48,940 nt of DNA, from IMG/VR virus record IMGVR_UViG_3300046009_003988, positions 1 to 48,940 of that record; one strand, given 5' to 3'. The notes beneath the pieces are model-generated. The model was not told where the DNA came from. It saw only the letters and a list, made by a program, of their open reading frames with translations, and did no database searches. The stretch comes from a virus. A program made the position numbers and the translations under genes. Shown piece after piece: positions 3,388 through 48,825 of this stretch (position 1 is the first letter of the stretch; the number at the start of each line of letters is the position of its first letter).

Positions 3388-6300
3388 TTATATTGTTCCT
3401 TTTGCAGACCATGAAAAGTTACCAGTTATAGGAGTACCAGAATTATTAAATAATAATACTCTAAAAAACTTAGGATATGTAGTATCTACAAAATCATAGA
3501 TAGCTATTCCCGGTGTTGTACCACCATAAGTTATTTGTATTCCACTGACATCTAAATAATCATAATTAAATGCAACTATAGTTCCTGAAGTTGCGGATGT
3601 TTTAACGATTGAAGCAACTACAGCACCGCCACCGCCACCGCCAGTAATAGTAATATTAGCTGGAAGTATGCTGGTATAGCCGGAACCTGAGTTAGTTACC
3701 TCAATACCAGTAACCGTTCCACCAGATATAATTGCTCTAGCTTTAGCACCAGTACCATTTCCACCTATTGTTACTGTAGGAATTGAGGTATAACCACTTC
3801 CACTACCCGATAGATTTATTTGATAGATTCCATTATCTGATACTTGACCACTACCACCATCATTAGTATATTTAATACTTAATTTTAATCTGTAATCATT
3901 GATACGAAGTAAGTCAATACCAGTAGTATTAGAGTTTAAAATTATCTCAACTTTAACATATCTAAAACTACTTGCAAATACACCGAAAGTTGTATTAATG
4001 TTGGTTCCTGGTTGTACTGCTGAACTTGCAGAGGTATATGTAATACCATCAGTACTTGTACTTAATATAACTTGATATGTACCAGTTGTACCAGATATAT
4101 TAGATATATCAGTAGCTATTGATACATATTGATTGGTATTAAAAATAATGCCATAGTCAATAACTTCTGTTAAAGTACCAGTATTTGTTGATGGTTGTGC
4201 ATATATAGGATATCCGGCATTTGGTTGATCTTGTATAATTGTCCAAGAATTACCAGTAAAATGAGTCTCAAAAGTTTGAGTAGGGCTCATAGGACCAATA
4301 AGCTTATTAATACCTGTAGTACCTAAAGCATCGGATTTAACTATATTAGTTCTAGTAGAAGTTACTGTATTAGAACCATAAGTTGTTACATTAAAGTTAT
4401 CTCGGTAAATATCACCAGTTAGTACATAATCTGGTGGTTGATTTACAACAGCATTTGTATGAGACATATCACTAATATTACCTGCTGTATCTATGGCAAC
4501 TAAAAAGTAAGTGAAGTTTCCAGAGGTTTCTTCAAATACTGTAGTAAAATTACCTGACTTAGTACCAATAGTTTCTGCTTGAGTATATGTTGCTAATGGA
4601 CTAAAAGATTTCTTTAACATAAATGTAGCTATAGGGAAACTATGTTGCGCTGAATCTTCCCAGTTTAATAGTATATTATTATCAATAACTTTATTAAAGA
4701 AATTAAGTGGTTTAGTTGGTTTAGTTATAGTTAGTTGTTTATTTGCTAAAGCCCCTGCTGTATTAAACGAATCGTATGCTCTTATTAAATAGTACCATGT
4801 TCCATCGGCATTATTTAAAGGATCTACGCTGGGATTAATTGGAGGGTCTAGTGCTATTGCTGAACCGCTTAATGAAGCTAAAGATGTGGCATTATTCCAT
4901 GCAGTTTCATCTACGTTAGCAGATCGGGTTGCACGAATTTCATATCTATCAATAGGTAAAGTAAATACATCTAGTAAAGTGCCTGTAATAATAGAAGTCC
5001 AGGCTGCATTAATAAATTGACCTACAATATTTACATTTAAACTATTTATAGCACTTGGCTTAGTTAAAGTTACTGATACAGTTGTTTGAGTAGTAGAAGC
5101 TAGACCAAAAGTATCTTTTGATGCTATTCTAAAAACTTTTGCCTGATTATACTTTAATGTACCTACCGGTACAGTTGATAACTCTGTTACATTAGTTATA
5201 CCATATAAATACTGTAGTATATTAATAGAAGCAGGAATATTAGCTACAAATGTAGCATTTTCCCAAGTTGTTCCACCTTCACGTAATTCATAGTATTCGA
5301 TAGGTAAAGAATTGATTGCAGTAGTTGCAGGATTCCATGAAAATAATAATTTACTTTCTTTCATAGTTGCCGATATATTACTAGGTGCATTAGGCGGTAC
5401 TATAGCAGTTGTTACTGTAGTTCTAGTATTTGATACATTACCATTAATATCTACTGCTTCAATATGTATGGCTTTTGTCCCTGCACCATAAGTCCATTCC
5501 AAAGAATACGAATTAGCAACAGTTTCCCCTATTTTAATAGGATTTCCCACATCACCAAAATATATATTATATTTAGCTATTGGGAAACTATTGCTTGCTA
5601 ATACTGAATGATTCCAAGTAGATCTTAATGTTGTGCCTGTTAAAGTATTTGTTAATCCAGTTGGAGCTGCTGGTACTAATACAGGAATAGTTACGGAAGC
5701 TCTTGGAGATACATTATTTATTATATCTACTGTTTCTATTGAAAATGTTCTAGATAGATTTTTATCTGCCCAAGTATACTCATATGTAGTACCAGTTACT
5801 TCGGCAATGGCCACTGAATCTATATATATTCTATATAGTTTAGTTGCTGCATCTGTAGAATCTACTACCGGTGCTGTCCATTTTAAAGTTAATTTATTTG
5901 CTGAAAATGTACTGGTTATTCCATTTACTTGATTTGGTAGTGTAAATGTTTTTGAAATTGATAAGTCTGGTAAACTTGATTGCCCACTATTATCAATAGT
6001 TTCTATTCTGAAAGTTTTTGATAGTATATTATCTAACCATAAATATTCATATGATGTACCGGTTACTTCTGCTACAGCTGATTCTACACCGTTGGATGTA
6101 ACAAAAATTCTATAACCATATGTAGAAATATTATTACTATTTACTACTGGTGCAGACCAAGATACTTTAAGAATATTACCATTTAATGAAAGCTGCGCAT
6201 TAGTTGCTGGATTTGGCAAAGCTATTATATTACTAACACTTGAAACAGAATTAGTTACTAGTATTGGTAATATAGCAGGTGCTGGAGTTTTTGTAAGAAG

Positions 6301-9300
6301 TATTTTTGCTGTTGTATTATCTATTAAACTACCTGATAATGTATATGAAGCAGACCAATTACCAGAAGTATCTTTAGCTTTTATATAAAATAAATGAGTT
6401 TTTCCAGATACATAAGTTTTTGTTGATAAAGTTACTTGAGTATCTTTACCACGATATATAGCAGCATTTGCAGAATCTAAACCCCATGTACCATAACGAA
6501 TCTCATAGTATTCAATATCTAAATCTGGCACCGCTGACCAACTTAATGTTAGCCCATCATTTGCTAGACTAGAATTAAAATTAGTTATATCTGCTGGATT
6601 TACTGTTTTACCTACTACTACATGATTTACTTCAGTTTTTTGTGATTTAGTACCTAAAGAATTTATAGCTTGTACTGATATAGTATATTCTGCTTCTGAG
6701 ATAGAAGATATTTCTATATTTGGTAAATTACTATATACTACTACTTCATTGCTATTTGTAGTTATATTTTTATAAGTTACCTGATAAGTATCTATAGTAG
6801 TATCTGGGCTTTCCCATGAAATAGATAATATATTACTTAGTACTTGCGGTGCTATTAAATACATATGTTCTGTAATAGTAATATTTTCTACTGGTTCTGG
6901 AACTAATGTTTGTGTATTTATTTTCTTTGGTTGTAGTCTATGATTATATTCTATATTATTAAATTTCTCTTCATTATAGCTTAAAGCAGTAATACCCATA
7001 ACACCTTTTGAAGGTTCTGATATTGATACTACTCTCCAAGATTGTAGTGCTAAATCACTAACTGATACTATCCATACTGAACCTACTGGAATAATAAAAG
7101 ATTGCGTTGTATTAACTATTAGGTCTATTTGATTTTGATTATTTGATATGTTAGATAATGGTAAACTTATAACTGTACCGTCATCTTTTGTAAATAGTGC
7201 AGTATATGTTTTACCTGTTGTAAATTTTATAGGATTATCAACAGTTACTATTACATTAGTACCAGTATTATATTGTACAGCAGCTACTCTTCCACCCAGT
7301 CTAATTCCAGATCTAAAAGGATCTTGGGTTTGGATTACATCACCTGGTTGACAAAGTAATCCATCTAAACCTGTTTTGAAAGATACGGTTTCAGTTTCAT
7401 ATTGTTCTGTATATAGTAACCACTTACCAAGTCTATGGGCTTGTCCTTGAGAGGTACAACCCATGGCAGATAGTTCAGTTTGTATAATACCATTTTGTAA
7501 TATAGAAGCCTCATCTTGTACATACTCTACTTCAATAGCATAACCATTTTTAGGATTATTCCAAGAAACTAATACTACGTTATGACGCGTTTTAGCCGAT
7601 GTACCAGTATATGTAAAAGTACCATCTATAACATTAGCAGCTGTATATATAGCATCTACAGATTTAGGAGAATCTTGAGATGCAGTAACTAAACCAGTAG
7701 ACCAAAATACCATACCTCTAAATATAGAGGCTAGATTAGATACTACTTTATATGCGTCTTCTCGGGTTTGTAAATATAAATTACAAGTAAATCTAGGTTC
7801 TACATCATCAATGATAATATTAATAGATGAACCTACTGGCACTGATTGCGCTTTACTAATAGTATATGTACCTATACCTCCGGTACCTGTTCCTAGTGCA
7901 GTAATAGTACATTCTTCTATACCAAAACCAGTAACTATAGAACCTACTCCTATAGAGGATAGATTTTTTCGGTTAGTTATAGTTAAAGTAGTTCCAGATA
8001 TTGAACCTACTACTACACCAGAAATACCCAAACCAGTAGGTACGGAACCATCACAATATTGAGCAATTGAATATAGTGTCCATTTATCTACTAAACTACC
8101 AGTTACTATATCTCCTAAACCATACCTTGTATTTGTTATTAAATCATAAAATACCCAGGCAGGATTATCGGTCCAATCTACTACAAATGTACCATCCCAA
8201 AAACCTGTATAGGTTCTATTAAGTGGGTCGTAGTTTGATGGAATTTTGCATTTGATACCATATATTTCATAAGATCTTGATGGTATACTTGAAAATTGTT
8301 CAGCATCTATAGCACAATACATCATAGCACTATTTGGATAGTTTAACTTAGCTTTTACTACTTCAGTATATGTACTCCAATATAGTTCGTTTGAAATACT
8401 TGCTTTTACTGATTCTTCTTCTACTCTGATTACCTGTACTTGCCAAGGACCTTCACCCCTTAAAGGTACTGTATAACCACGTTGATATTTAGCTAATGTT
8501 TTACCCTCTATTACCCCCAAGGTATCGAAAGCAACGGTATAGGATCTATTTGTAAAACCAAATAATCCTTGTGCAACTCCAATAACTTCGCACTTATATT
8601 CATAAATAGCTAAAGTATGCTCAACTAATACTGTTTTAGTAGTGTAAACTGGCACAGATACTGAATTAGTAATACCAAAACCTTGGGAAGCAGTTGTTCT
8701 GGTTTCATTCTTACCAGTAAATGCTACTGTAGCATGTATTTCCCAATTAGTGGCACCAACTAAACGTTTATATACTCCTATAGAAATATTTTGTTGTTTA
8801 TTACTAGTTGTTCTCCAACCAAGTACCAGTTGACTTGCTATTGCATCCTCTGTTTCGGTATATACTGAATAACCTTTTATAGCTACTGATTGTCTTCTAT
8901 TTGTATTTCCATACATATACATTGTACCAGAATTAGCATCTGGTGGTGGTGTTGCGTATAATACTGAACTACTACCTGAAGTACTATTGTAAGTACCTAA
9001 ATCACGTATTGTAACTTCGGTACCAGACAATGTACCATTATTTTTAGTATTATAACTTAATCCTACTCTTTCATATTTAGAATAAGGTTCGCTATTTTTT
9101 ACATTAATTACAAAGGATACTTTACTACCGTGTAAATCTCCAGTAGTTGTATCTTGCTCTGTAAGTTGTGGTACTTCCATAGTAATATAACATTCATCTG
9201 CTTCTAGGTTAGTTACTGAACGGACTGTTCCAGTTGCTCTTTGCATAAATACACTTGAAGCATTCAATGCTAATGGTTCATCTAGTAAAACTGTGAATGT

Positions 9301-10470
9301 ATTAGCGGTTGGTACAGTTTTTACTGTATAAACGCATAGTGGAAAGAAATCTCCTGCTGGCGTATATCTACGACCTTTTTTACCTATGGTATATGTAACA
9401 CCTTGCTCTTCTTTAGCCCATAGATAAATGGACTCACCTTCTTGAAAACCGTGTGCAGTTTTAGTTATAGTTTTAGTACTTCCTAAAGTAGAGGCTGCAT
9501 GGGTTCCGGTTTTAATATTATTAACTAAACTAGCATTGGCATATACTATTCCAGCAACATATGTTGCACTTGGAACTGTAATTGTATAGGTATCCGGAGT
9601 AACAGAATTTATTGTATATATATTTTCTGGTAAAGTTCCAGTTTTAGAAGCTATATATAAAGTTTGACCTGATAAATATCCATGATTAGCTAAAGTTAGT
9701 GTTAAACTTGTAGTTGCTGTTGTGGCATGTGGATATGTAGATTCTAATAATTTAGGGCGTTCTACTCTAGTTGATACATTAATAGTATTTTCTACTGAGT
9801 TTAAATCTGAAATAACTGCTTGATTTTGCGTACCTGTACGAACATCTATAAAACTATCTCTGAAGTTATAGGTTCCATCTGCATTTTGTAGTGGTACATC
9901 ATTAATAAATACGGATTGATCACCCGAGACTAGTCCCCCAATTTCCCCTTCGGAAACTAGGTCTAGTACTCTAGCAAATTGTTTTGAGCGTAATGTATTG
10001 GGGTCTTCTACTGCTGGACGACTTGCACCACCACCTTTACCTCCACCACCATTATGTACACGAATACCATCTACTATATAAGTATGGTCTGGTACTACTG
10101 ATAGGTTATATACATCTTCAATGCCAGCCTCTTCTGAGACTATCATTGGTCTTAGGGTACCATCACTATCAACCAAACAATCATGGGTTGATAAATTACC
10201 TATTTCTGAAAATGAGTTAAGTTGGTTTAAAACCCAGTGATTAGCAGTAGCATATATTTCACCACCCCAATAAGTATATTTTGATACCTCATTGTTTTTA
10301 TGGAAAAATACTTCTTCTACTACTGATGTAGCTAGTCTACCTGTATCATTATAGGAGATTACTTCATCACCTACAACTATTTCAGATATATTTTTATACC
10401 CAGAAGTTGTTAGAACTTTAGCATACTGTGGAAAACATCCACCACTACCTATAATTTCTTTTTGTGCCAT
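3388..10470 (-). CDS. J: Lambda J-like tail tip / host specificity protein with N-terminal Hint domain
   Basis: 2360 residues, about twice lambda J. After a Hint domain (residues 12-140) and a Gly-rich linker, the J-type N-terminus appears (LRSKQFARVLDLVSEGEIGG). The core continues to about residue 1200 with phrases typical of J proteins, such as GTFVVDWTDNPAWVFYDLIT. From about 1230 to 2000 there is a series of fibronectin type III-like modules with conserved Trp and Tyr (LSISWESP, LTLSWSAVPD, LKVSWSAP, LTLKWTAP). The C-terminus is Gly/Ser/Thr-rich. J forms the central tip that binds the host surface and guides DNA ejection. It starts at the stop of the I-like gene (TAATG overlap). Confidence 0.93.
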   Translation of the reverse strand: MAQKEIIGSGGCFPQYAKVLTTSGYKNISEIVVGDEVISYNDTGRLATSVVEEVFFHKNNEVSKYTYWGGEIYATANHWVLNQLNSFSEIGNLSTHDCLVDSDGTLRPMIVSEEAGIEDVYNLSVVPDHTYIVDGIRVHNGGGGKGGGASRPAVEDPNTLRSKQFARVLDLVSEGEIGGLVSGDQSVFINDVPLQNADGTYNFRDSFIDVRTGTQNQAVISDLNSVENTINVSTRVERPKLLESTYPHATTATTSLTLTLANHGYLSGQTLYIASKTGTLPENIYTINSVTPDTYTITVPSATYVAGIVYANASLVNNIKTGTHAASTLGSTKTITKTAHGFQEGESIYLWAKEEQGVTYTIGKKGRRYTPAGDFFPLCVYTVKTVPTANTFTVLLDEPLALNASSVFMQRATGTVRSVTNLEADECYITMEVPQLTEQDTTTGDLHGSKVSFVINVKNSEPYSKYERVGLSYNTKNNGTLSGTEVTIRDLGTYNSTSGSSSVLYATPPPDANSGTMYMYGNTNRRQSVAIKGYSVYTETEDAIASQLVLGWRTTSNKQQNISIGVYKRLVGATNWEIHATVAFTGKNETRTTASQGFGITNSVSVPVYTTKTVLVEHTLAIYEYKCEVIGVAQGLFGFTNRSYTVAFDTLGVIEGKTLAKYQRGYTVPLRGEGPWQVQVIRVEEESVKASISNELYWSTYTEVVKAKLNYPNSAMMYCAIDAEQFSSIPSRSYEIYGIKCKIPSNYDPLNRTYTGFWDGTFVVDWTDNPAWVFYDLITNTRYGLGDIVTGSLVDKWTLYSIAQYCDGSVPTGLGISGVVVGSISGTTLTITNRKNLSSIGVGSIVTGFGIEECTITALGTGTGGIGTYTISKAQSVPVGSSINIIIDDVEPRFTCNLYLQTREDAYKVVSNLASIFRGMVFWSTGLVTASQDSPKSVDAIYTAANVIDGTFTYTGTSAKTRHNVVLVSWNNPKNGYAIEVEYVQDEASILQNGIIQTELSAMGCTSQGQAHRLGKWLLYTEQYETETVSFKTGLDGLLCQPGDVIQTQDPFRSGIRLGGRVAAVQYNTGTNVIVTVDNPIKFTTGKTYTALFTKDDGTVISLPLSNISNNQNQIDLIVNTTQSFIIPVGSVWIVSVSDLALQSWRVVSISEPSKGVMGITALSYNEEKFNNIEYNHRLQPKKINTQTLVPEPVENITITEHMYLIAPQVLSNILSISWESPDTTIDTYQVTYKNITTNSNEVVVYSNLPNIEISSISEAEYTISVQAINSLGTKSQKTEVNHVVVGKTVNPADITNFNSSLANDGLTLSWSAVPDLDIEYYEIRYGTWGLDSANAAIYRGKDTQVTLSTKTYVSGKTHLFYIKAKDTSGNWSASYTLSGSLIDNTTAKILLTKTPAPAILPILVTNSVSSVSNIIALPNPATNAQLSLNGNILKVSWSAPVVNSNNISTYGYRIFVTSNGVESAVAEVTGTSYEYLWLDNILSKTFRIETIDNSGQSSLPDLSISKTFTLPNQVNGITSTFSANKLTLKWTAPVVDSTDAATKLYRIYIDSVAIAEVTGTTYEYTWADKNLSRTFSIETVDIINNVSPRASVTIPVLVPAAPTGLTNTLTGTTLRSTWNHSVLASNSFPIAKYNIYFGDVGNPIKIGETVANSYSLEWTYGAGTKAIHIEAVDINGNVSNTRTTVTTAIVPPNAPSNISATMKESKLLFSWNPATTAINSLPIEYYELREGGTTWENATFVANIPASINILQYLYGITNVTELSTVPVGTLKYNQAKVFRIASKDTFGLASTTQTTVSVTLTKPSAINSLNVNIVGQFINAAWTSIITGTLLDVFTLPIDRYEIRATRSANVDETAWNNATSLASLSGSAIALDPPINPSVDPLNNADGTWYYLIRAYDSFNTAGALANKQLTITKPTKPLNFFNKVIDNNILLNWEDSAQHSFPIATFMLKKSFSPLATYTQAETIGTKSGNFTTVFEETSGNFTYFLVAIDTAGNISDMSHTNAVVNQPPDYVLTGDIYRDNFNVTTYGSNTVTSTRTNIVKSDALGTTGINKLIGPMSPTQTFETHFTGNSWTIIQDQPNAGYPIYAQPSTNTGTLTEVIDYGIIFNTNQYVSIATDISNISGTTGTYQVILSTSTDGITYTSASSAVQPGTNINTTFGVFASSFRYVKVEIILNSNTTGIDLLRINDYRLKLSIKYTNDGGSGQVSDNGIYQINLSGSGSGYTSIPTVTIGGNGTGAKARAIISGGTVTGIEVTNSGSGYTSILPANITITGGGGGGAVVASIVKTSATSGTIVAFNYDYLDVSGIQITYGGTTPGIAIYDFVDTTYPKFFRVLLFNNSGTPITGNFSWSAKGTI
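10051..10437 (-). other. Hint / mini-intein-like domain inside J (residues 12-140)
   Basis: Block A: Cys12 in GGCFPQYAKVLTTSGYKNIS followed by VGDEVIS. Block B: GGEIYATANHWVLN with the conserved T-x-x-H (residues 75-78). Blocks F and G: VYNLSVVPDHTYIVDGIRVHN, ending in His139-Asn140. The length is 129 residues with no homing-endonuclease insert. The residue after Asn140 is Gly, not Cys, Ser or Thr, so canonical splicing lacks its acceptor. Both sides are Gly-rich (GSGG and GGGGKGGG), which looks like insertion into the Gly-rich N-terminus of J. Domain identity is high confidence; self-processing is inference. Confidence 0.88.
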
Positions 10471-23971: not shown

Positions 23972-25900
23972 TTAGCTCCAACGTAATGTTGAAACGCCTT
24001 GACCTAGATTAGTAGTCAATTGAGTAACACCAGTACGCAATGAACTTACTAGAACTTTACGTTGTGTTTCTACTAGATCTTGTGTATCTAAACGTAGACC
24101 ACGTTGATTACCGGCTAAGAAGTTAGCTGGGGCAACGCATAATGCACCGATATTAGTAGTTGCAGTAGCTGCACCACCTGCTTTAGCTGGGAACATGCTA
24201 GATACTAGAACTGGTGTATTACCAATCATACCAACTTGGCCTGTTAACAATGTAGCTGCAGGACCAACTTTATCCATAGTTTGGAAAGCTGTATCATCTA
24301 ACAAATCGTAGTAAACTTCAGTAGAAACGATAAACGCTAATTCTGAAGGCTCTAGACCCCAAGCACCTAAATCTTTACGCAATGCACGTAGGTTAGCAAT
24401 TGAAGCAACGCCAGTATTTGTTGGAACAACTACTGAAGTAGCGTCATAGATTGACAAACCTTTAACTGGATCAGAACCAGAACCGGCACCGATTAAGTAT
24501 GCTTTATCAACAGCACGAGCTACGCGACGGATCATTGCATCACGGATAGTAGGTAACAAGATTAACAATGAATCTTCTTCCTCTTCGTATGCTAAGTATT
24601 CCATTGTTGCAACTTTATATGCATTCAATGTTACAGCACCCAATTGATGAGTTTGTGCAGAACCTGGAGATGCGGTTGTACCGAATTGAGCATTAGTAAT
24701 CCAAGTTGCATCACCTGCTTCTGGGTTTACTGGAATTGTCATAACGTTAGTTTGCATATTGATGCCACGCAACAATGGAGCAACAACTAAACGACGACGG
24801 ATTTCATTTTCCATGTTCAATGAAACTTCTAATTCCCAAGTAGCTGAAGGAACGTGAGCTCCTGCTTTTTCAACGATGCCAGCACCGTATTTAGTATCTT
24901 GGATAGATTTACCAGTGATTTTTGAAAGTAGATATGCAGATTCTTTCTCAGCATAAGCAGCACCTTCTTTATCGCCAGCAAAGTTCATTTTGCTTTTTTG
25001 AATAGCTTCTAATTCTTTAGATTTTTCTTTGATTACTTCTTCTAAGCCAGCGATAGCTGATTTATTAGTAACTTCTTGAGCATCTAAACGTTTTGTGATA
25101 TCAGCTAAAAGTTGTTCAGCACCTGAAGTACCTGAAGTAACTACAGTAGCTTTAGCAACAGCGTCAGCGATGCGTTTTTCAACGGCAGCAGCTTCAGCAG
25201 CTTTTTCTGCATCAGCAGCTTTTTCAGCAGCTTGAGCGTCGATTACAGTTTGAGCAGCAGCAGCTGCAGTCTTAGCCAATAAGGCTTCTAAATCTTTTGG
25301 ATCCATAAAAATTTCCTCTTTTTGTTGAACGGTTGGTTCTTCTAATGTTTTTTGCTCTTTAGCAGGTTCATTAGTTGAAAACTGTTTTTTAAATAAATTA
25401 TAGTCATCGTCACTTTCAAAAGACTTTGACAAACTAAATGTACTATCTTGATTTGCAGGCACTGATACTACTGATATTTCTAGTAGCTCTAGCTCTTTAA
25501 TAATAAAGAGGTCAGTAATTGAATCATAAGTTGCATCTTTGATTATGAATCCTACAGAAAAAGCTGTAAGAACACCATCTTTTACTAAATTAAATACATC
25601 TTCTGCGGCTGCAGAAATACGTGCTTTAATCCATAAACCTTTATCCTCTATCTTGTATTCTGACATTCTGCCGATAGGTTCGTCATGGTCATGATACGCT
25701 AAAATAATAGGGTTTTTAAGGTAATTTTGAAGTCCCTTTTCCCAAACAGTTTTAGGGATTACATCACCACTTCTATCTACCGTAGTAGTATTTGCATACC
25801 CTTCAATAAATATAGAGTCTATAGTTTCCCCAGTTGTGGGTAAAGGGGCGCTTTTTTGGAAAAGCGAGTCCAGTCGAATGACTTTACCTTTTATATCCAT
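23972..25900 (-). CDS. HK97-type prohead protease fused to major capsid protein
   Basis: 642 residues. Residues 1-165 are an S78-type prohead protease: FIEGYANTTTVDRSGDVIPK, the catalytic-region His in ILAYHDHDEPIGR (His70/His72) and Ser115 in LTAFSVGF. Residues 199-305 are Ala/Lys/Glu-rich coiled coil, like the delta scaffold. Residues 310-642 are the HK97-fold capsid protein (N-arm AGAHVPSATWELEV; end LGQGVSTLRWS). In most HK97-like phages protease and capsid are separate; fusions are known. An internal start at Met199 could also yield a scaffold-capsid protein without protease. Confidence 0.92.
   Translation of the reverse strand: MDIKGKVIRLDSLFQKSAPLPTTGETIDSIFIEGYANTTTVDRSGDVIPKTVWEKGLQNYLKNPIILAYHDHDEPIGRMSEYKIEDKGLWIKARISAAAEDVFNLVKDGVLTAFSVGFIIKDATYDSITDLFIIKELELLEISVVSVPANQDSTFSLSKSFESDDDYNLFKKQFSTNEPAKEQKTLEEPTVQQKEEIFMDPKDLEALLAKTAAAAAQTVIDAQAAEKAADAEKAAEAAAVEKRIADAVAKATVVTSGTSGAEQLLADITKRLDAQEVTNKSAIAGLEEVIKEKSKELEAIQKSKMNFAGDKEGAAYAEKESAYLLSKITGKSIQDTKYGAGIVEKAGAHVPSATWELEVSLNMENEIRRRLVVAPLLRGINMQTNVMTIPVNPEAGDATWITNAQFGTTASPGSAQTHQLGAVTLNAYKVATMEYLAYEEEEDSLLILLPTIRDAMIRRVARAVDKAYLIGAGSGSDPVKGLSIYDATSVVVPTNTGVASIANLRALRKDLGAWGLEPSELAFIVSTEVYYDLLDDTAFQTMDKVGPAATLLTGQVGMIGNTPVLVSSMFPAKAGGAATATTNIGALCVAPANFLAGNQRGLRLDTQDLVETQRKVLVSSLRTGVTQLTTNLGQGVSTLRWS
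25304..25319 (-). promoter_or_regulatory. Internal ribosome-binding site and start in the capsid fusion
   Basis: On the minus strand AGAGGAAA lies 5 bases before the ATG of Met199 (ATGGATCCAAAAGAT). This ATG opens the delta-coiled coil and capsid part (MDPKDLEALLAKTAAAAA). The spacing and purine content are as good as at the real gene starts nearby. Confidence 0.7.
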
Positions 25901-25909
25901 ATTGCTCCT

Positions 25910-27100
25910 TTAATTATTCCCTGGGGGTGCTGGGTCGGCTTTAGGCTTACCACCTACCGAGGGATTTGCTGCAGAACCAGCTATATTAGCTGGGATTCTT
26001 ATTTCATCTGCCCCTTCTAACTTAGCATAACGTAATTCAATACGTGCTTCATTAGGGGTTAAGATGCCCGCATTTACTAATGTTGAGTGATACGCTGCAA
26101 CATCTTTAATATCGGGTTGTAATGCTGAAACACCTGAAGTGATTGGTTCGATATCATAACCGAAGAATCTTTCAAGAGCTGATGTATATTTTGTTACAAT
26201 GGGTAGTACTGTTTCAAGATATAGTAGTCTAAGATTAGGTGCTATATTTGCATTATTTCCACCATCTAAAAGAATTGGTGGAACTCCAAGAGCTTTAAGT
26301 ACTTTTGTATCGTGAGTTTGGATAGAGACATCAAAGTCCATATCTTTAAAACTTGCTGTAGACATTGATTTAAGTTTTAATCCACTGTCTAGTATAATTG
26401 GCTTCTTAGCCCCATTCTTTGGACTATACTGTGTACGCCATTTTTCTATTGTTTTATCTTTTGCTAACTGTGAAAGTGTATTCTCTGTTTCGAGTACTAA
26501 CCCTGTAACAGCACCATTTTCAAAAAACTGATCTTGGAAAGTTTGCATACGATATAGTATATCTAAACTTCTTTTTGCTGACTCTAATCTTGAGCTTCCG
26601 CGATATATGCCTATTGATGATAAATCACGTATATGGAAGACTTCATCTGTTGAGAACTTTGTAATATTATTATATAGGTAATGTGATATAAAAGTTTTAG
26701 GGTCTGGAGCAATTACCATCATATTTGCTGGTAGGTGGTATAGGAAAGCCCCATCCCAATAAATAAATATATTACCTTCTAGAATGAAATCTGTAAAGAT
26801 TGCTGTTCTAAAATCTTGAATGCTTTGATAAGGATTAGGTTTATAGTTTAATAAACTATTTAATTGTTTTGCACGAATACCTGTGGCAACTCCGTCAAAA
26901 ACTTTATCCTTAATATCATAGTTGAGACTAGCGCAAGAACTAGTAATCATATTAGTGCCGCGATTTACAGTCTCTAACTTACTAAATGCTTGTATATAAT
27001 TTATTAGTTGGTCAGAAGAAATTAGAGAACCACTGTTTTGAGCGATTATCTCCTGTGCTGGGTTGTTCTTCTGAAACCAATTTAACGGATTCCATTCCAT
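25910..27100 (-). CDS. Portal protein, HK97 family
   Basis: 396 residues. Family signatures: N-terminal NPLNWFQ, LLNYKPNPYQSIQDFRTAIF, LEGNIFIYWDG, and LKALGVPPILLDGGNNANIA near residue 270, with the C-terminal YAKLEGADEIRIPAN. The portal ring is the DNA channel and binds terminase. It lies between TerL and the protease-capsid gene. Its first 89 bases overlap the end of the HNH gene in another frame. Confidence 0.93.
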   Translation of the reverse strand: MEWNPLNWFQKNNPAQEIIAQNSGSLISSDQLINYIQAFSKLETVNRGTNMITSSCASLNYDIKDKVFDGVATGIRAKQLNSLLNYKPNPYQSIQDFRTAIFTDFILEGNIFIYWDGAFLYHLPANMMVIAPDPKTFISHYLYNNITKFSTDEVFHIRDLSSIGIYRGSSRLESAKRSLDILYRMQTFQDQFFENGAVTGLVLETENTLSQLAKDKTIEKWRTQYSPKNGAKKPIILDSGLKLKSMSTASFKDMDFDVSIQTHDTKVLKALGVPPILLDGGNNANIAPNLRLLYLETVLPIVTKYTSALERFFGYDIEPITSGVSALQPDIKDVAAYHSTLVNAGILTPNEARIELRYAKLEGADEIRIPANIAGSAANPSVGGKPKADPAPPGNN

Positions 27101-27833: not shown

Positions 27834-29120
27834 TTATCTTGTATAACTATAAAGTGCATAGCGAAGCGCATCCGCCATGTGTGAATATTCATTATGTTTT
27901 GGGCGTTCTTTTAATAGATTAGCATTAGTATCCCATTGATATTGATCTAACATATCTGTTACATTTGTACAATGTGACATTACATAAAGCTGGTCTGTTT
28001 CAATAATAGTACGACAATAAGCAATACCATCTAAAACAGATTTCTTGGCCTTGATAGTTGCTATATCATACTCATATGCTAAATCATGTGCCATCTGAGC
28101 TGCTGCACTATCTATAAATATTGTTTCGATTCCCCACTTATCTGATAGTTCTTGTATTTTAATAGCATGGTCTTTAGTACCAACTTCGTTATTTAAATAC
28201 TCGTCTAATATATAGAATTTATTTGTTGAGTAGTGAAATCCAATTACTAAGAACGCTGTATAGTCTCGATAACCGGGATCTAGTCCTGCAAATATTTCCA
28301 TATCACCAACTGGAAATTCTTCAATAATATTAGTATCTGGTAAGTTATAGATAGCACCTTGGAAACTATTAAATGAAGCCATGTACTCTTGTTCGAACTC
28401 TACCTTTGACATACCTTTACGGGCTTCAGCTACATCTTTTTCTGACATACGAGTATTCTCAGTATAGTCAGCGTGTAGGCTAATCCACTCATCAAAAGTT
28501 GGGTCATTTCCACGGTCAAAGAATTTACTAAACCAGTTCTGCTTACCACGAGGTGTAGAGATAAATATAGCTTTACTATTGGGTTTATCTAGTGTAGGTC
28601 GTAGTGCCACGTTGAAAGCATCTTCGCCTTCTGATGTTAGTGCGGCTTCATCAAATATAATTAGGTCATAGCTGCGACCAACGCAACTATCAACTTGCCC
28701 AACTGAACCCATACGAATAGTAGAACCATTACCTAGTTCCAGTACTCGATCCTTCATGTTATCTTTAGTAACTTCTAAGTCGAAATGTTTTACAAGCTTA
28801 CGTTGTAGTTCAAATGATATACTTGACAAGTTATAGTTAGGTGACATAATTAATACATTAGTATTTGGAACTAGTGTTACTAATTGACCAACTACATTTG
28901 CAATATATGTCTTGCCAACTCGACGAGAATAAGCTGCTACAATAAAACGATACTTAGGACTATTAACCGCATTAACCAATGCAGTTTGGGGTCTATTGAA
29001 TTCATCCCAACTATTAATAAGCTTAAGGTAGTTTTCAATAGGTAATTTTATAAACTTTAGGTCTGATGGAAATTCTTGTAGTAAGTCCCCTGTTATTTCT
29101 GGTCTACTAATGGTAAGCAT
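27834..29120 (-). CDS. terL: Terminase large subunit
   Basis: 428 residues. ATPase: Walker A AAYSRRVGKT (62-71), Walker B LIIFDEAAL (153-161), coupling motif FISTPRG near 187. RNase H-like nuclease: Asp281 in AGLDPGYRDYTAF, Asp337 in IFIDSAAAQ, and C-terminal HMADALRYALY. It pumps DNA into the prohead and cuts the concatemer. It lies between a small membrane ORF and a coiled-coil gene, with sugar-modifying genes inserted between it and the terS-like gene. Confidence 0.97.
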   Translation of the reverse strand: MLTISRPEITGDLLQEFPSDLKFIKLPIENYLKLINSWDEFNRPQTALVNAVNSPKYRFIVAAYSRRVGKTYIANVVGQLVTLVPNTNVLIMSPNYNLSSISFELQRKLVKHFDLEVTKDNMKDRVLELGNGSTIRMGSVGQVDSCVGRSYDLIIFDEAALTSEGEDAFNVALRPTLDKPNSKAIFISTPRGKQNWFSKFFDRGNDPTFDEWISLHADYTENTRMSEKDVAEARKGMSKVEFEQEYMASFNSFQGAIYNLPDTNIIEEFPVGDMEIFAGLDPGYRDYTAFLVIGFHYSTNKFYILDEYLNNEVGTKDHAIKIQELSDKWGIETIFIDSAAAQMAHDLAYEYDIATIKAKKSVLDGIAYCRTIIETDQLYVMSHCTNVTDMLDQYQWDTNANLLKERPKHNEYSHMADALRYALYSYTR

Positions 29121-32333: not shown

Positions 32334-32654
32334 ATGGCTACATCAACTAAGGCGGTAAATTATACAACAGAGCAAACAGCAAATGCGATTGCTCAATATG
32401 CGACAGGTGCATCTATTGATGCAATCGCAACAGCTTTGGGTAAATCAACACGAAGCGTGATTGCAAAACTATCTCGCGAAGGTGTTTATAAAGCAAAAGA
32501 ATATAAAACAAAAACAGGTGGCACTGTGATTGCTAAAGAAACTTTTGTGGAATTGATTGCTAATGCTTTGAATGTGGACACTGAAAAATTAGGTGGCTTA
32601 GAAAAAGCAAATAAAGCAACATTGGAAATCATCTATAAAGCTTTGGTTGAATAA
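32334..32654 (+). CDS. Small HTH protein, paralogue A
   Basis: 106 residues. N-terminal helix-turn-helix: YTTEQTANAIAQYATGASID, then KSTRSVIAKLSREGVYKAKE, as in sigma region 4-like or recombinase-like HTH domains. A basic linker (KTKTG) leads to a helical C-terminal part (LIANALNVDTEKLGGLEKAN). Three more copies occur at 36455, 37409 and 38858 (minus). Probably a DNA-binding regulator. Start chosen at TGGAGAAATTAAAATG, also used by the next gene. Confidence 0.85.
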   Translation: MATSTKAVNYTTEQTANAIAQYATGASIDAIATALGKSTRSVIAKLSREGVYKAKEYKTKTGGTVIAKETFVELIANALNVDTEKLGGLEKANKATLEIIYKALVE

Positions 32655-33694: not shown

Positions 33695-34081
33695 ATGAGA
33701 AAAAATTCAAAATTGGTTGATTTAATGTTCACTAAGGCGGAAAAATTATTCCCCGCTTTTCGGTTGCCGATTGCATGGGTTAAATTAAATAATGAGAATA
33801 TGGCAGAATGGCGGAATGGTTTTGTTGATGGTTTTGGTGAATATCACCTAATATCAATTAACTTTAAAATTCACGAAAATGAAAAAGATTTATTTGATAC
33901 AATTTGCCATGAACTAATACATGCATGGCAATTTGAGAATGGCATTGAAACTAATCATGGGATTGAATTTTGCACATGGGTTTTAATGCTAAAAAATCAA
34001 GGCATAAATGCGTCAAGCTCTGATTGCCTTGCTAAAACTTTGAAAAAGGCGCATAGGCGATTGATTAAAAAATCCAAATAA
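33695..34081 (+). CDS. SprT-like metalloprotease domain protein
   Basis: 128 residues. The zinc motif HELIHAWQ is at 72-79, with a third ligand probably His88 in ETNHGIEFC. The N-terminal half has the SprT-like pattern (FRLPIAWVK ... GEYHLISINFKIH). Such domains occur in DNA-protein crosslink proteases (Spartan) and many phage proteins. No zinc ribbon follows. A second, different SprT-like gene lies at 40747. Role in phage DNA metabolism is inferred. Confidence 0.82.
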   Translation: MRKNSKLVDLMFTKAEKLFPAFRLPIAWVKLNNENMAEWRNGFVDGFGEYHLISINFKIHENEKDLFDTICHELIHAWQFENGIETNHGIEFCTWVLMLKNQGINASSSDCLAKTLKKAHRRLIKKSK

Positions 34082-36312: not shown

Positions 36313-36387
36313 ATGGAAACTTTACTAATTGGCTTTTTTTCAGGCATGGCTTTTTTAGCGATTTTGCTTGACGCTTGGGATAGATAA
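36313..36387 (+). CDS. Short membrane peptide
   Basis: 24 residues (METLLIGFFSGMAFLAILLD then AWDR), one hydrophobic helix. It starts 10 bases after the previous stop, with GGGGATAAAAA as ribosome-binding site. Its last codons contain the -35 box of the next promoter. Confidence 0.55.
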   Translation: METLLIGFFSGMAFLAILLDAWDR

Positions 36388-36396
36388 GCGTATAAT
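36368..36396 (+). promoter_or_regulatory. Promoter of HTH paralogue B
   Basis: TTGACG, 17 bases, TATAAT. The following leader (TTTTAATGGTTAAGCAAT) is related to that of paralogue A. Confidence 0.8.
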
Positions 36397-36410
36397 GATT
36401 TTAATGGTTA

Positions 36411-36436
36411 AGCAATCGCCACTTTCAAGAATTGCT
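36411..36436 (+). promoter_or_regulatory. Inverted repeat in HTH paralogue B leader
   Basis: AGCAAT and ATTGCT separated by 14 bases, at the place of GCAATTC/GAATTGC in paralogue A. Bases differ but pairing is kept. Confidence 0.55.
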
Positions 36437-36454
36437 AAAATTTTGGAGAAAATT

Positions 36455-36775
36455 ATGGCTACAACAAAAACTGTAAATTACACGGCAGAGCAAGCAAGCC
36501 AAGCCGTTTCAATGTATCAAGCTGGCGATAGCGTGGAAACAATCGCCACACTTTTGGCAAAATCAACCCGTTCTGTTATCGCTAAATTAAGCCGTGAGGG
36601 TGTTTATAAAGCGAAAGAATATAAAACGAAAGCGGGCGAGCCTGTAACCGCTAAAGACGAATTGGCGGAAAAAATTTGCGCTAAAGCTAATCTACCGCTA
36701 GACATGGCGGAAAGCATAGCAAAGGCAAATAAGCAAGCCCTTGTTGGAATTTTAAGCGCACTTAATCGCACTTAA
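36455..36775 (+). CDS. Small HTH protein, paralogue B
   Basis: 106 residues from MATTKTVNYTAEQASQAVSM. The HTH KSTRSVIAKLSREGVYKAKE is identical to paralogue A over 20 residues, while the C-terminal part has diverged (ELAEKICAKANLPLDMAESI). The start is set at 36455 because TTTTGGAGAAAATTATG matches the ribosome-binding site of paralogue A; the upstream in-frame ATG at 36368 lies in the promoter. A terminator follows. Confidence 0.85.
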   Translation: MATTKTVNYTAEQASQAVSMYQAGDSVETIATLLAKSTRSVIAKLSREGVYKAKEYKTKAGEPVTAKDELAEKICAKANLPLDMAESIAKANKQALVGILSALNRT

Positions 36776-37408: not shown

Positions 37409-37723
37409 ATGACTACTAAACAACCTGTTGCAAATTATTCTGCTGAAGTTACTGCTGAAATCGTAGCCCGCTATACTGCTGGTGAAACTGTTGAAGCTCT
37501 TGCTACTTTCGCTGGTAAGTCTACTCGTTCTATCGTAGCTAAGTTAAGCCGTGAAGGTGTTTACACTTCTAAAGCTAAAACAAAAGCTGAAGCCCGTACT
37601 ACCAAAGGTGAGTTCGTTGCACAAATCGCTGAAGCGATGGGTGTTGATGAGGAAGCTCTTGATAGCCTAGAGAAAGCTACTGCTAGTGCTTTAAAATTAG
37701 TTTTAACTGCTGTTACTAAGTAG
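37409..37723 (+). CDS. Small HTH protein, paralogue C
   Basis: 104 residues. N-terminal HTH (YSAEVTAEIVARYTAGETVE; KSTRSIVAKLSREGVYTSKA), Lys-rich linker, then an acidic helical tail (FVAQIAEAMGVDEEALDSLE). Codon use looks optimised (Ala mostly GCT, many CGT) compared with paralogue A. With four stacked promoters upstream this is probably among the most expressed genes of the phage. No terminator separates it from the structured RNA that follows, so both are likely one transcript. Confidence 0.88.
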   Translation: MTTKQPVANYSAEVTAEIVARYTAGETVEALATFAGKSTRSIVAKLSREGVYTSKAKTKAEARTTKGEFVAQIAEAMGVDEEALDSLEKATASALKLVLTAVTK

Positions 37724-38857: not shown

Positions 38858-39226
38858 CTATTTAAATTGGTGGTCTGCTATCTGTTGCTCTAGTGAAGCG
38901 ATATAGGATAAATTATCTTTTATACCTTCATAGATTTGTGTTAAACCGATTTTGGTAACCTTCTCCATTGACTCCAGTAGTTGAGGTTCTATACCTAACA
39001 TTTCTGCGATACCATCAATATAAATTTCTTTTTTAATTGGTGGCTCACCTCGTTTGTTTAAGTACTCTTTCTTCTTGTAGATACCAAGACTACTTAGTTT
39101 ACTAATGATACTGCGTGGGCTAACATCTAATTTCTTAGCTAGTGTGGCAACAGTATCTAAGCCTGGGTTAGCTGTATATATTGCTGATATTTCTGTGATT
39201 ACTTCGGGTGTGTAGGTTATAGCCAT
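38858..39226 (-). CDS. Small HTH protein, paralogue D
   Basis: 122 residues. Same layout as paralogues A-C but the most diverged: YTPEVITEISAIYTANPGLD, HTH VSPRSIISKLSSLGIYKKKE, then IYIDGIAEMLGIEPQLLESM, with an extra C-terminal coiled coil (YIASLEQQIADHQFK). Encoded on the opposite strand as the last gene of a minus operon, start overlapping the upstream stop. Probably a DNA-binding regulator acting against or with A-C. Confidence 0.82.
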   Translation of the reverse strand: MAITYTPEVITEISAIYTANPGLDTVATLAKKLDVSPRSIISKLSSLGIYKKKEYLNKRGEPPIKKEIYIDGIAEMLGIEPQLLESMEKVTKIGLTQIYEGIKDNLSYIASLEQQIADHQFK

Positions 39227-40606: not shown

Positions 40607-40750
40607 TTATAAGCTCATGTACAAATTATAGGCAAAAGACTCGATGTGTTCCTCACAGTCCTTTGGCATATCTAACAAGATTACCTTTAGTGCAGCGGCT
40701 TCTTCTTGAGTCAGTTTAATTTTTACTGACTCTTCATGTGTTACTTTCAT
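40607..40750 (-). CDS. Small hypothetical protein
   Basis: 47 residues (MKVTHEESVKIKLTQEEAAA then LKVILLDMPKDCEEHIESFA). The start overlaps the stop of the SprT-like gene (ATGA). The -35 of the next unit lies just after its stop. No family recognised; the alternating start suggests a beta strand followed by helices. Confidence 0.65.
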   Translation of the reverse strand: MKVTHEESVKIKLTQEEAAALKVILLDMPKDCEEHIESFAYNLYMSL

Positions 40751-41202
40751 AGTGTACCTCCATTAGTTATTTTACGAATTTCAGAGGTCATCACAACCTT
40801 TGAACCACAAAGCTTGCAACCCCAAGACTTGGTGCTAGCCTGTAGCGTGAATAAATGCTCCTTGCAGCCGCATTTACCTACCACTCGCTGCAAAGTTCTT
40901 TTAGCCTTCTGAACTTCGTAGTTGTGGTAAGTATTTGGTTTCCCTCCTAGTTCCAGCATTATCATGCGGAACTCAGGGCCATGTGCTTGTTTGGCATTGG
41001 GAAATCTAGCCGCTGTAAATAGATGTGCCAACTCATGCAACACTGTGTTGCTGTAGTTGGCATTGTGCATTAGCTTGGTGTTGAAAGCAACCTTGTTTAG
41101 CTGTGGATATGCACGACCTGCAATTGTGTTGTGTTCAAACCACTCTACCACAATTGCGGGGTCAAAGCTGTTGACTAACTCTATTATTTGTTCTTTATTC
41201 AT
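40747..41202 (-). CDS. SprT-like metalloprotease with zinc ribbon
   Basis: 151 residues. HELAH at 56-60 and His74 (QAHGPEFR) form the zinc site. The C-terminal zinc ribbon has Cys-x-Cys (GKCGCKEH) and Cys-x-x-Cys (WGCKLCGSK), the full SprT architecture. Related only distantly to the SprT-like protein at 33695. Possible roles: DNA-protein crosslink removal or host protein cleavage. Own promoter at 41228-41256. Confidence 0.88.
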   Translation of the reverse strand: MNKEQIIELVNSFDPAIVVEWFEHNTIAGRAYPQLNKVAFNTKLMHNANYSNTVLHELAHLFTAARFPNAKQAHGPEFRMIMLELGGKPNTYHNYEVQKAKRTLQRVVGKCGCKEHLFTLQASTKSWGCKLCGSKVVMTSEIRKITNGGTL

Positions 41203-45488: not shown

Positions 45489-45851
45489 ATGTCGCGTTTA
45501 GAGGGTTATGTAGAAAAAGGTTGGGGTAGTGAGTTAATTTGGGCAACCAATAATAAGTATTGTGGTAAACTATTAAAGTTCAATACTGGTGCTAAGTTTA
45601 GTATGCACTTCCATGCTAAAAAAGAAGAAACTTGGTTTGTGTTGGGCGGTAGATTTATAGTTAGTTTTATTAAGACTAATGATGCCTCAGTACATGACGA
45701 GGAGTTAGGCCCTGGAGATGTATGGCATAATAATATATTAGAGCCACATCAACTAATATGCCTAGAAGAAGGCACTATTATTGAAGTTAGTACACCAGAT
45801 AGTGTAGAAGATAACTATAGAGTACTGCCTGGAGATAGTCAACGTGCGTAA
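45489..45851 (+). CDS. Cupin protein (sugar-metabolism type)
   Basis: 120 residues. Cupin motif 1 is GAKFSMHFHAKKEETWFVLG (two His, one Glu), and motif 2 is GPGDVWHNNILEPHQLICLE. Closest in look to the cupin half of mannose-6-phosphate isomerase/GMP proteins. It forms an overlapping operon with heptose nucleotidyltransferase- and kinase-like genes, so a sugar-phosphate role is likely. No promoter is seen directly upstream; read-through of the terminator may supply transcription. Confidence 0.85.
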   Translation: MSRLEGYVEKGWGSELIWATNNKYCGKLLKFNTGAKFSMHFHAKKEETWFVLGGRFIVSFIKTNDASVHDEELGPGDVWHNNILEPHQLICLEEGTIIEVSTPDSVEDNYRVLPGDSQRA

Positions 45852-46242
45852 AGCTGTTATAAATGGTAGTTTTGATATATTACATCCAGGACATTTAAAA
45901 CTAATAAACGTAGCTAGATTTTCAGCAGAACACTTACTAATATGTATAGATAGTGATAGGCGCATCAAAGAACTAAAGGGTGATAGTAGACCAATTAATA
46001 ATGAAGACTGGCGAGTAGCCATGTTGGATGCTATCAAAGGTGTAAACGAAGTAGTAGTATTTGATAGCCAAGAAGAACTAGAAAATATATTAAAGTACTA
46101 TCAAGCAGATGTTATGGTCAAAGGTAGTGATTATAAAGATAAACCAATTATAGGTAGTCAATACTGCCAAGAAATTATTTTTGTGGATAGATTAGATGAA
46201 TACTCAACAAGCGCGAAAATTCAAGATATTACTTCTAGGTGA
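45844..46242 (+). CDS. HldE C-terminal-like nucleotidyltransferase
   Basis: 132 residues. INGSFDILHPGHLKLI carries the HxGH nucleotide-binding motif, and ADVMVKGSDYKD fits the RfaE2/HldE domain that attaches a nucleotide to heptose 1-phosphate. GTG start, 8-base overlap with the cupin gene. In bacteria this domain is usually fused to the kinase; here the order is reversed and the domains are separate. Confidence 0.88.
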   Translation: MRKAVINGSFDILHPGHLKLINVARFSAEHLLICIDSDRRIKELKGDSRPINNEDWRVAMLDAIKGVNEVVVFDSQEELENILKYYQADVMVKGSDYKDKPIIGSQYCQEIIFVDRLDEYSTSAKIQDITSR

Positions 46243-46942
46243 TAGTTGTATTGATATCTACCAATATGGCTCAATAGAGCGTATTAGTCCAGAAGCCCCA
46301 GTACCCGTATTTAAATTACTATACGAAGAAACTCGTGAGGGTATGAGTTCCAATGTTAAAGCTAACTTAGAAATGCTGGGTTGCGATGTTACTCATTTCC
46401 ATGGTGCTACAAGTATTAAAACTAGATTAATAGATAATCATAGTAAACAGCATATTGTAAGAATAGATGTAGATAAAGAAACTCTACCACTTTACTATAA
46501 GTTTGATTTAGATGGGTATGATGCAATAGTAATTAGTGATTACTGTAAGGGTTATATAACCTACGACCTAGTACAAGACCTTAGACATAGATTTAAAGGG
46601 CCAATCTTTATAGATACTAAAAAACATGACTTAGTTAAATTTAAAGGTTGTTTTGTAAAAGTAAACAGTTCCGAAGCAACGCAGGCAACTTCTACTGTTA
46701 GTGACTTAATTGTTACTAAAGGTGGAGACGGTGCAAGTTATAATGGTAGAACTTATATAGGTAATAAAGTCACAGTACGAGATGTTTGTGGTGCAGGAGA
46801 TACCTTCTTGGCTGCCCTAGCATACCAGTATTTAAATACTAATAGTATTGAAGAGGCTATTGAGTTTGCTAATAAAGCAAGTTCTATTACAGTTCAAAAA
46901 CTTGGAGTATATGCCCCATCATTCTCAGAAATTCTGACTTGA
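46196..46942 (+). CDS. HldE N-terminal-like PfkB-family kinase
   Basis: 248 residues. LLLGDSCIDIYQYG, ISPEAPVPVFK (typical RfaE1), GMSSNVKANLEMLG and the anion-hole motif VCGAGDTFLAAL. Shorter than the usual domain of about 315 residues, mainly in the middle. It overlaps the nucleotidyltransferase gene by 47 bases in another frame. Together with it and the cupin it could make or alter an activated heptose for surface glycans. Confidence 0.88.
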   Translation: MNTQQARKFKILLLGDSCIDIYQYGSIERISPEAPVPVFKLLYEETREGMSSNVKANLEMLGCDVTHFHGATSIKTRLIDNHSKQHIVRIDVDKETLPLYYKFDLDGYDAIVISDYCKGYITYDLVQDLRHRFKGPIFIDTKKHDLVKFKGCFVKVNSSEATQATSTVSDLIVTKGGDGASYNGRTYIGNKVTVRDVCGAGDTFLAALAYQYLNTNSIEEAIEFANKASSITVQKLGVYAPSFSEILT

Positions 46943-48343: not shown

Positions 48344-48418
48344 GGTTTAGTCGTATAATGGTTATTACGCAGGCTTGTCAAGCCTATTATCGGAGTTCAA
48401 TTCTCCGCTGAACCGCCA
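48344..48418 (+). tRNA. tRNA-Asp(GTC)
   Basis: Acceptor GGTTTAG/CTGAACC, anticodon loop TTGTCAA in CAGGC/GCCTA, T-arm CGGAG-TTCAATT-CTCCG, discriminator G as in Asp tRNAs, CCA encoded. Confidence 0.92.
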
Positions 48419-48436: not shown

Positions 48437-48610
48437 GTGCCACTATATAATTATAAATGTACTAAATGCGGTCATGAGTTTGAGGGTATTGCTAGATATA
48501 GTGAGTCAGCAACTAAACCTTGTCCAGAGTGTGAACAAATAGCAGAAAAACAAGTATCAGCAACAGAAAATATCAAATTTACAGGAATTCGTGGCTCTGC
48601 CACGATGTGA
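48437..48610 (+). CDS. FmdB-type zinc ribbon protein
   Basis: 57 residues with a GTG start: PLYNYKCTKCGHEFEGIA, then KPCPECEQIAEKQVS. Two Cys-x-x-Cys pairs (8/11 and 29/32) and the PLYxYxCxxCGHxFE opening match the FmdB/regulatory zinc ribbon family, first described near formamide and methylamide genes of a methylotroph. An overlapping ATG at 48435 opens another frame without motifs. Lies directly upstream of pqqA and its leader. Confidence 0.85.
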   Translation: MPLYNYKCTKCGHEFEGIARYSESATKPCPECEQIAEKQVSATENIKFTGIRGSATM

Positions 48611-48611
48611 C

Positions 48612-48698
48612 AGCTAGGAAAGACTAGCAGGCTAGCTCTCCAATGAATTGTAGAAAGTACTCAAATTGGACCTGCATATTATTAATCCAAATTAGGAG
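48612..48698 (+). promoter_or_regulatory. Structured leader of pqqA with competing stems
   Basis: GCTAG-GAAAGA-CTAGC hairpin (48613-48628). ATTGGA (48665-48670) can pair with TCCAAT (48639-48644), or in part (TTGGA) with TCCAA (48686-48690), which lies beside the AGGAG ribosome-binding site (48694-48698). Confidence 0.45.
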
Positions 48699-48705
48699 AA
48701 TTACT

Positions 48706-48777
48706 ATGTGGACATCACCAGCAGCGACAGAAATGCGCTTTGGCTTTGAAGTTACAATGTACGTTTGTAATCGTTAA
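48706..48777 (+). CDS. pqqA: PqqA, precursor peptide of PQQ (phage-encoded)
   Basis: 23 residues, the exact family length. It opens [10 protein letters not shown] and contains [12 protein letters not shown]. The conserved E-V-T-x-Y (Glu15, Tyr19) holds the two residues that PqqE crosslinks and later enzymes convert to pyrroloquinoline quinone, cofactor of methanol, glucose and other dehydrogenases. Good ribosome-binding site (AGGAG, 7 bases before ATG) and a terminator just after. No pqqB-E genes are in the window, so the peptide would feed the host pathway. An intact start, length and motif argue against chance. Confidence 0.9.
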
Positions 48778-48791
48778 GAGTTAAGGTCTTT

Positions 48792-48825
48792 GGTAGTTTC
48801 TACTTAATGAAACTACCATTAAATT
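48792..48825 (+). terminator. Terminator after pqqA
   Basis: GGTAGTTTC pairs with GAAACTACC, followed by ATTAAATTT. The T-run is interrupted, so efficiency may be moderate. Confidence 0.7.

Follow-up and report, generated by a model that had tools for sequence, protein, structure and literature searches.

The locus considered here raises the question of whether a frame of only 23 codons in a phage genome truly encodes PqqA, the precursor peptide of the cofactor PQQ, and what a phage would gain from the precursor in a genome where it is the sole methylotrophy gene recognised. We examined the window (the whole stretch of DNA analysed, 48,940 nucleotides), in which the gene and its signals are as follows:

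48694..48699, + strand: ribosome-binding site AGGAGA, six bases 5′ of the pqqA ATG
48706..48777, + strand: pqqA, 23-residue PQQ precursor peptide plus stop, ATG to TAA, with Pfam PqqA and TIGR02107 matches
48791..48818, + strand: terminator-like hairpin after pqqA, with a 10-bp stem, an 8-nt loop and a weak U tail

Judged by its sequence, the frame at 48706-48777 is a true PqqA. The core reads EVTMY, conforming to the short-peptide pattern E-V-T-x-Y with Glu and Tyr four residues apart, and both Glu15 and Tyr19 are present, which are the residues joined by PqqE in known PqqA. The peptide matched the Pfam family PqqA (PF08042) with an E-value of 1.6e-9 (37.9 bits, cutoff 21.1) and the NCBIfam equivalog TIGR02107 with an E-value of 4.7e-10 (39.1 bits, cutoff 20), and when the whole 48,940-base record was searched for PqqA this frame was the only match (E 8.3e-10). 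Neither PHROGs nor the PDB returned a family or structure match for the peptide. The preliminary description had reported a 23-residue PqqA frame here with the Glu15/Tyr19 core, a ribosome-binding site and a terminator; its coordinates, frame and length proved exact, AGGAGA is in place, and the homology to PqqA is well above chance. The terminator was upheld in part: the hairpin is the strongest terminator-like site in the right end of the window and has a folding z-score of -4.0, with none of 200 shuffles equally stable, but it is followed by a weak U tail. The linear contig ends 163 bp beyond the gene.

That the surrounding DNA belongs to a phage, as had also been proposed, is established by the following genes, listed with those closest to pqqA:

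23972..25900, - strand: prohead protease fused to major capsid protein, phage hallmark (PF04586 + PF05065; phrog_80 + phrog_617)
25910..27100, - strand: portal protein, phage hallmark (PF04860, 1.5e-55)
27834..29120, - strand: terminase large subunit, phage hallmark (PF03237, 4.4e-12; phrog_2, 6.2e-43)
48344..48418, + strand: tRNA-Asp(GTC), closest to pqqA in a run of tRNA genes
48437..48610, + strand: 57-residue zinc-ribbon protein (Zn_ribbon_8; PF09723, E 7.7e-14), closest protein gene 5′ of pqqA

The record also encodes a major tail protein, a tape measure protein and a small terminase, and is a bona fide phage genome. Within it, pqqA sits in the right-hand block, amid tRNA genes and downstream of the zinc-ribbon gene. 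The head module is T5-like. TerL shares 48% identity with its counterpart in 113-kb Vibrio phages, which makes it probable that the window is a fragment of a larger genome. The closest terminase relatives showed no pqqA, with the limit that two of them (L249 and L250), judged by terminase offset, stop short of the end at which the window carries it; relatives of the pfkB-like neighbour gene likewise carried no pqqA.

Several other features of the window may be recorded. Across the tRNA/pqqA region there are three sigma-70-like promoters on the + strand (47244, 47896 and 48833), each with 11 of 12 matching bases and 17-base spacing, the total number of promoter-like sites in the window being no higher than in shuffles. 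Consecutive cupin, cytidylyltransferase and pfkB kinase genes (45489-46942, +) resemble a split HldE-like sugar activation module, and the nearest annotated relatives of the kinase are in cyanophages S-CAM1 and S-CAM3. A large J-like tail tip protein (3388-10470, -) matches Hint / PT-HINT over the first 142 residues, which may represent an intein or a Hint domain fused to the protein. A small DNA-binding-like protein occurs in four diverged copies (32334-32654, 36368-36775, 37409-37723 and 38858-39226) that share a motif such as KSTRSVIAKLSREGVYK, one of the copies matching a PHROG of DNA-binding proteins, and two distinct SprT-like metalloprotease-type proteins (33695-34081 and 40747-41202) are encoded by this same phage.

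In an attempt to identify the likely host, we compared the peptide with cellular PqqA. It is one residue away from the PqqA of Methylobacillus flagellatus, Pseudomethylobacillus and other Methylophilaceae, having Ser4 instead of Thr or Lys, so that the host of the window phage was very probably a methylotroph; this putative assignment comes from the peptide and not from an isolate. At the DNA level the closest host coding sequence has 9 mismatches in 69 bases, which indicates that the window gene was not copied very recently from any of the genomes sampled. With 23 mostly invariant residues (69 bases), the gene is too short for a tree to resolve its donor. Three peptide types found in viruses are exactly identical to PqqA in host genomes of Methylophilaceae.

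The preliminary description had not known pqqA as a common phage gene, a view that is now outdated, and the search of phage and virome databases that it recommended was productive. A tblastn search of 50,697 phage records gave 12 pqqA matches. Nine are records of Methylophilaceae/Methylophilales phage isolates (P19250A, MEP301, MEP401, MEP402, Venkman and four Melnitz records), where the gene is mostly unannotated, lying between annotated genes or beneath an antisense "hypothetical protein"; the remaining three are the circular Manatee Spring virus and two records named "Acinetobacter phage MD-2021a". The latter was dropped as a pqqA phage; the larger record (CAKLQF020000010.1, L246) has pqqABCDE, ppk and other chromosomal genes, and looks like a mislabelled bacterial contig. 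The Methylophilales phages MEP431-434 and Venkman EXVC038S are named in the taxonomy and are not included in the matches from the phage collection. In IMG/VR, a scan for GFEVTMY in degenerate codons gave at least 120 contigs, and all 120 matches listed are 23-24-residue PqqA frames. A second scan relied on the N-terminal half of PqqA, its contig number being a lower bound; among newly fetched loci it yielded at least 95 matches with 73 distinct coding sequences, and all those listed run into the PqqA core and stop at residue 23. Of 128 viral pqqA copies, 121 have a Shine-Dalgarno-like motif ahead of the start, compared with 4.8% of random positions, and perfect stems of at least 7 bp occur downstream of 99 of 253 copies, compared with 12 in shuffles. 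We conclude that pqqA, which occurs in hundreds of virus contigs, is common among the phages that infect methylotrophs and has been overlooked for its small size.

The types of pqqA recovered follow the metabolism of the hosts. Patterns made for other host groups matched 42 IMG/VR contigs (methanotroph type), 2 contigs (alphaproteobacterial type) and none (Pseudomonas/Acinetobacter type), counts that give a direction and not a rate, as sensitivity differs between patterns. When the phage collection was queried with PqqA of the Pseudomonas and Klebsiella kinds, the same 12 records were returned and nothing further. As far as sampled, phage pqqA is confined to phages of C1 oxidisers.

We then considered whether the phages carry any more of the pathway. 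Relatives of PqqB, PqqC, PqqD and PqqE were found in none of 265 viral pqqA loci, compared with 54, 47, 36 and 32, respectively, of 118 host loci. PqqE did not exceed its cutoff in any of 50 and 45 whole viral pqqA records; a terminase was detected, with a single model, in 22 of the 50 and 12 of the 45, and the others are viral by IMG/VR classification. Phage pqqA thus has no pqqBCDE nearby, and such neighbours do not define the peptide, as host orphan copies likewise stand without them. All 60 sampled Methylophilaceae genomes contain pqqA, 57 of them in 2-12 copies, with the reservation that some copies may sit in prophages and that assemblies may be contaminated. PqqE exceeded its cutoff in eight of nine host genomes, the exception being a 0.9-Mb single-cell OM43 assembly.

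Selection was assessed from codons unconditioned by retrieval and from syntenic pairs; the all-codon pN/pS was discarded, as part of the sequence had been fixed by retrieval. Over the 73 distinct viral sequences, pN/pS was 0.037 at the codons that retrieval had not fixed, and in phage pairs that also have a homologous gene beside pqqA it was 0.04-0.11 at every distance. Viral pqqA is under strong purifying selection, although some of this signal may stem from the hosts if the gene is frequently re-acquired by phages. In pairs whose neighbouring phage proteins are 95-99.9% identical, pS for pqqA was 0.26, and such high synonymous difference between close relatives may mean that pqqA is often exchanged. 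Venkman and the Manatee Spring virus match in DNA at pqqA only, over a stretch of 85 bases; the pqqA stretch is also the only match between MEP301 and each of P19250A, MEP401 and MEP402, and Pelagibacter phages having other genes in common with MEP301 gave no pqqA match by tblastn in the phage collection. It therefore seems that pqqA is gained or exchanged as a tiny unit and retained where the host is a C1 oxidiser. The window gene has the features of an auxiliary metabolic gene, being a homologue of a host metabolic gene that lies in a phage genome and is maintained by selection, with the caveat of exchange with hosts.

A link to methane oxidation came from two contigs with methanotroph-type pqqA that also carry pmoC, IMGVR_UViG_3300043410_001892 (L404, 372 kb) and IMGVR_UViG_3300047560_002175 (L392, 172 kb). 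The larger has a terminase, and its single pmoC adjoins ClpP, a phage-type DNA ligase and other phage-family genes. The pmoC neighbourhoods of the two have identical gene order, and the contigs are consequently related rather than independent. In a third large contig (L400, 372 kb), pqqA is accompanied by a terminase, and no pmoC match was obtained. The text describing large pmoC phages (PMC7674155) does not mention PQQ. Taking the survey as a whole, we think it likely that phages of methanol and methane oxidisers follow a general, repeatedly acquired strategy of encoding the precursor peptide without the enzymes, in unrelated lineages that include the large pmoC phages, and that this has largely escaped notice because the gene falls below gene-calling length limits.

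PQQ is built from PqqA itself, such that each cofactor molecule costs one peptide whereas PqqB-E act repeatedly, and pqqA would thus be the cheapest single gene by which to raise PQQ supply. During infection, the phage would make additional PqqA peptide, which host PqqD and PqqE would bind and crosslink from Glu15 to Tyr19; other host enzymes would complete PQQ from it, and the PQQ-dependent methanol dehydrogenase, through which energy and carbon enter the host, would remain provided with cofactor through the lytic cycle. We infer the host of the window phage, the expression of pqqA, the rise in PQQ and the benefit to the phage. The preliminary description had proposed just this kind of supply, of the substrate only and for a PQQ dehydrogenase, and the proposal is strengthened by the viral loci without pqqBCDE, by host PqqE and multi-copy host pqqA, by purifying selection and by the confinement to C1 oxidisers. 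PqqA availability is described as a rate-determining step in Methylovorus MP688, a member of the Methylophilaceae with five pqqA copies, by PMC11317620, which cites Ge 2015, and methanol dehydrogenase is always the top transcript in OM43 (PMC5120137). PMC11317620, citing Toyama and Lidstrom, also describes one pqqA of Methylobacterium extorquens as dispensable, with orphan copies not looked at, so that extra PqqA need not bring a gain in all hosts. We assign a probability of roughly 0.77 to the reading that phage-borne pqqA, drawn from the Methylophilaceae PqqA pool, tops up the consumed substrate of PQQ synthesis for methanol dehydrogenase.

The peptide might be functional and yet serve something other than methanol dehydrogenase flux, such as the handling of lanthanides, defence against oxidative stress or some other quinoprotein. 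This would fit the suggestion in PMC11317620 that an alternative pathway of lanthanide uptake in M. extorquens may involve orphan pqqA copies; however, sampled phage pqqA comes only from phages of methanol or methane oxidisers, with none of the Pseudomonas type, and it occurs together with pmoC here and with methanol dehydrogenase in Lake Baikal phages, and we regard such a role as unlikely.

Much less credible is a decoy or regulator that ties up PqqD/PqqE or a protease and depresses PQQ synthesis or the metabolism of the host. Such a peptide would also be encoded without the enzymes, as is seen, yet the phages keep a complete substrate, often identical to host PqqA; loss or change of the crosslinked Glu15 and Tyr19 would be expected of a decoy, and no copy retrieved without conditioning on these residues showed it. 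The position of the window gene close to the end of a linear contig, and the ease with which one of the many pqqA copies scattered over host genomes could be captured by accident, might suggest a functionless passenger or a misassembly. This we hold to be the least probable of all, as pqqA occurs in independent complete isolate genomes, is under strong purifying selection within syntenic phage pairs, has its own ribosome-binding site in 121 of 128 copies along with an excess of terminator-like hairpins, and is accompanied by pathway neighbours in 0 of 265 viral loci.

The release of methanol and methane to the air is controlled by methylotrophs and methanotrophs, and if their phages routinely top up PQQ, a 69-base gene skipped by most annotation pipelines ties viral infection to C1 flux. 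The existing phage-host pairs (Venkman or Melnitz on H5P1, MEP401 on FZCC0133) offer a one-gene, one-metabolite system for the proposition that a phage gene raises cofactor supply. In addition, pqqA is usable as a host marker for uncultured virus contigs, and very small metabolic genes are undercounted in viromes.

Viral PqqA is already known but barely noticed, and the general pattern is the newer part. The Lake Baikal virus population VP_266, reported in 2020, is T4-type, encodes PqqA and methanol dehydrogenase and has a predicted Methylophilaceae host (PMC7678222); it shares with the window a viral PqqA and the same proposed purpose, whereas the window has a different, T5-like head module and pqqA as its sole recognised methylotrophy gene, and that paper presents one case and not a general trait. 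Viral pqqA, pqqD and pqqE are also named, with no further description, in a 2026 reservoir study, and the phage isolate papers searched do not report pqqA, their only mention of PQQ being as a medium supplement (Melnitz paper). In the literature that could be searched, neither the breadth nor the pqqA-only pattern nor the pmoC link appears to have been reported. The pmoC of large phages (PMC7674155, 2020) resembles pqqA in being a phage gene that supports the first steps of C1 oxidation, but it encodes an enzyme subunit, while pqqA encodes a substrate peptide that is consumed. Compared with the PqqA of Methylophilaceae (Methylobacillus flagellatus, Pseudomethylobacillus and uncultured members), the window peptide has the same 23 residues in length and all core residues, differing at residue 4; the host genes are chromosomal, multi-copy and sometimes beside pqqBCDE, whereas that of the window stands alone amid phage tRNA genes. 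Cyanophage photosynthesis genes such as psbA provide a phage copy of a fast-consumed component by which host energy metabolism is kept running. The psbA of cyanophages replaces a damaged protein, whereas pqqA would supply the raw material of a cofactor.
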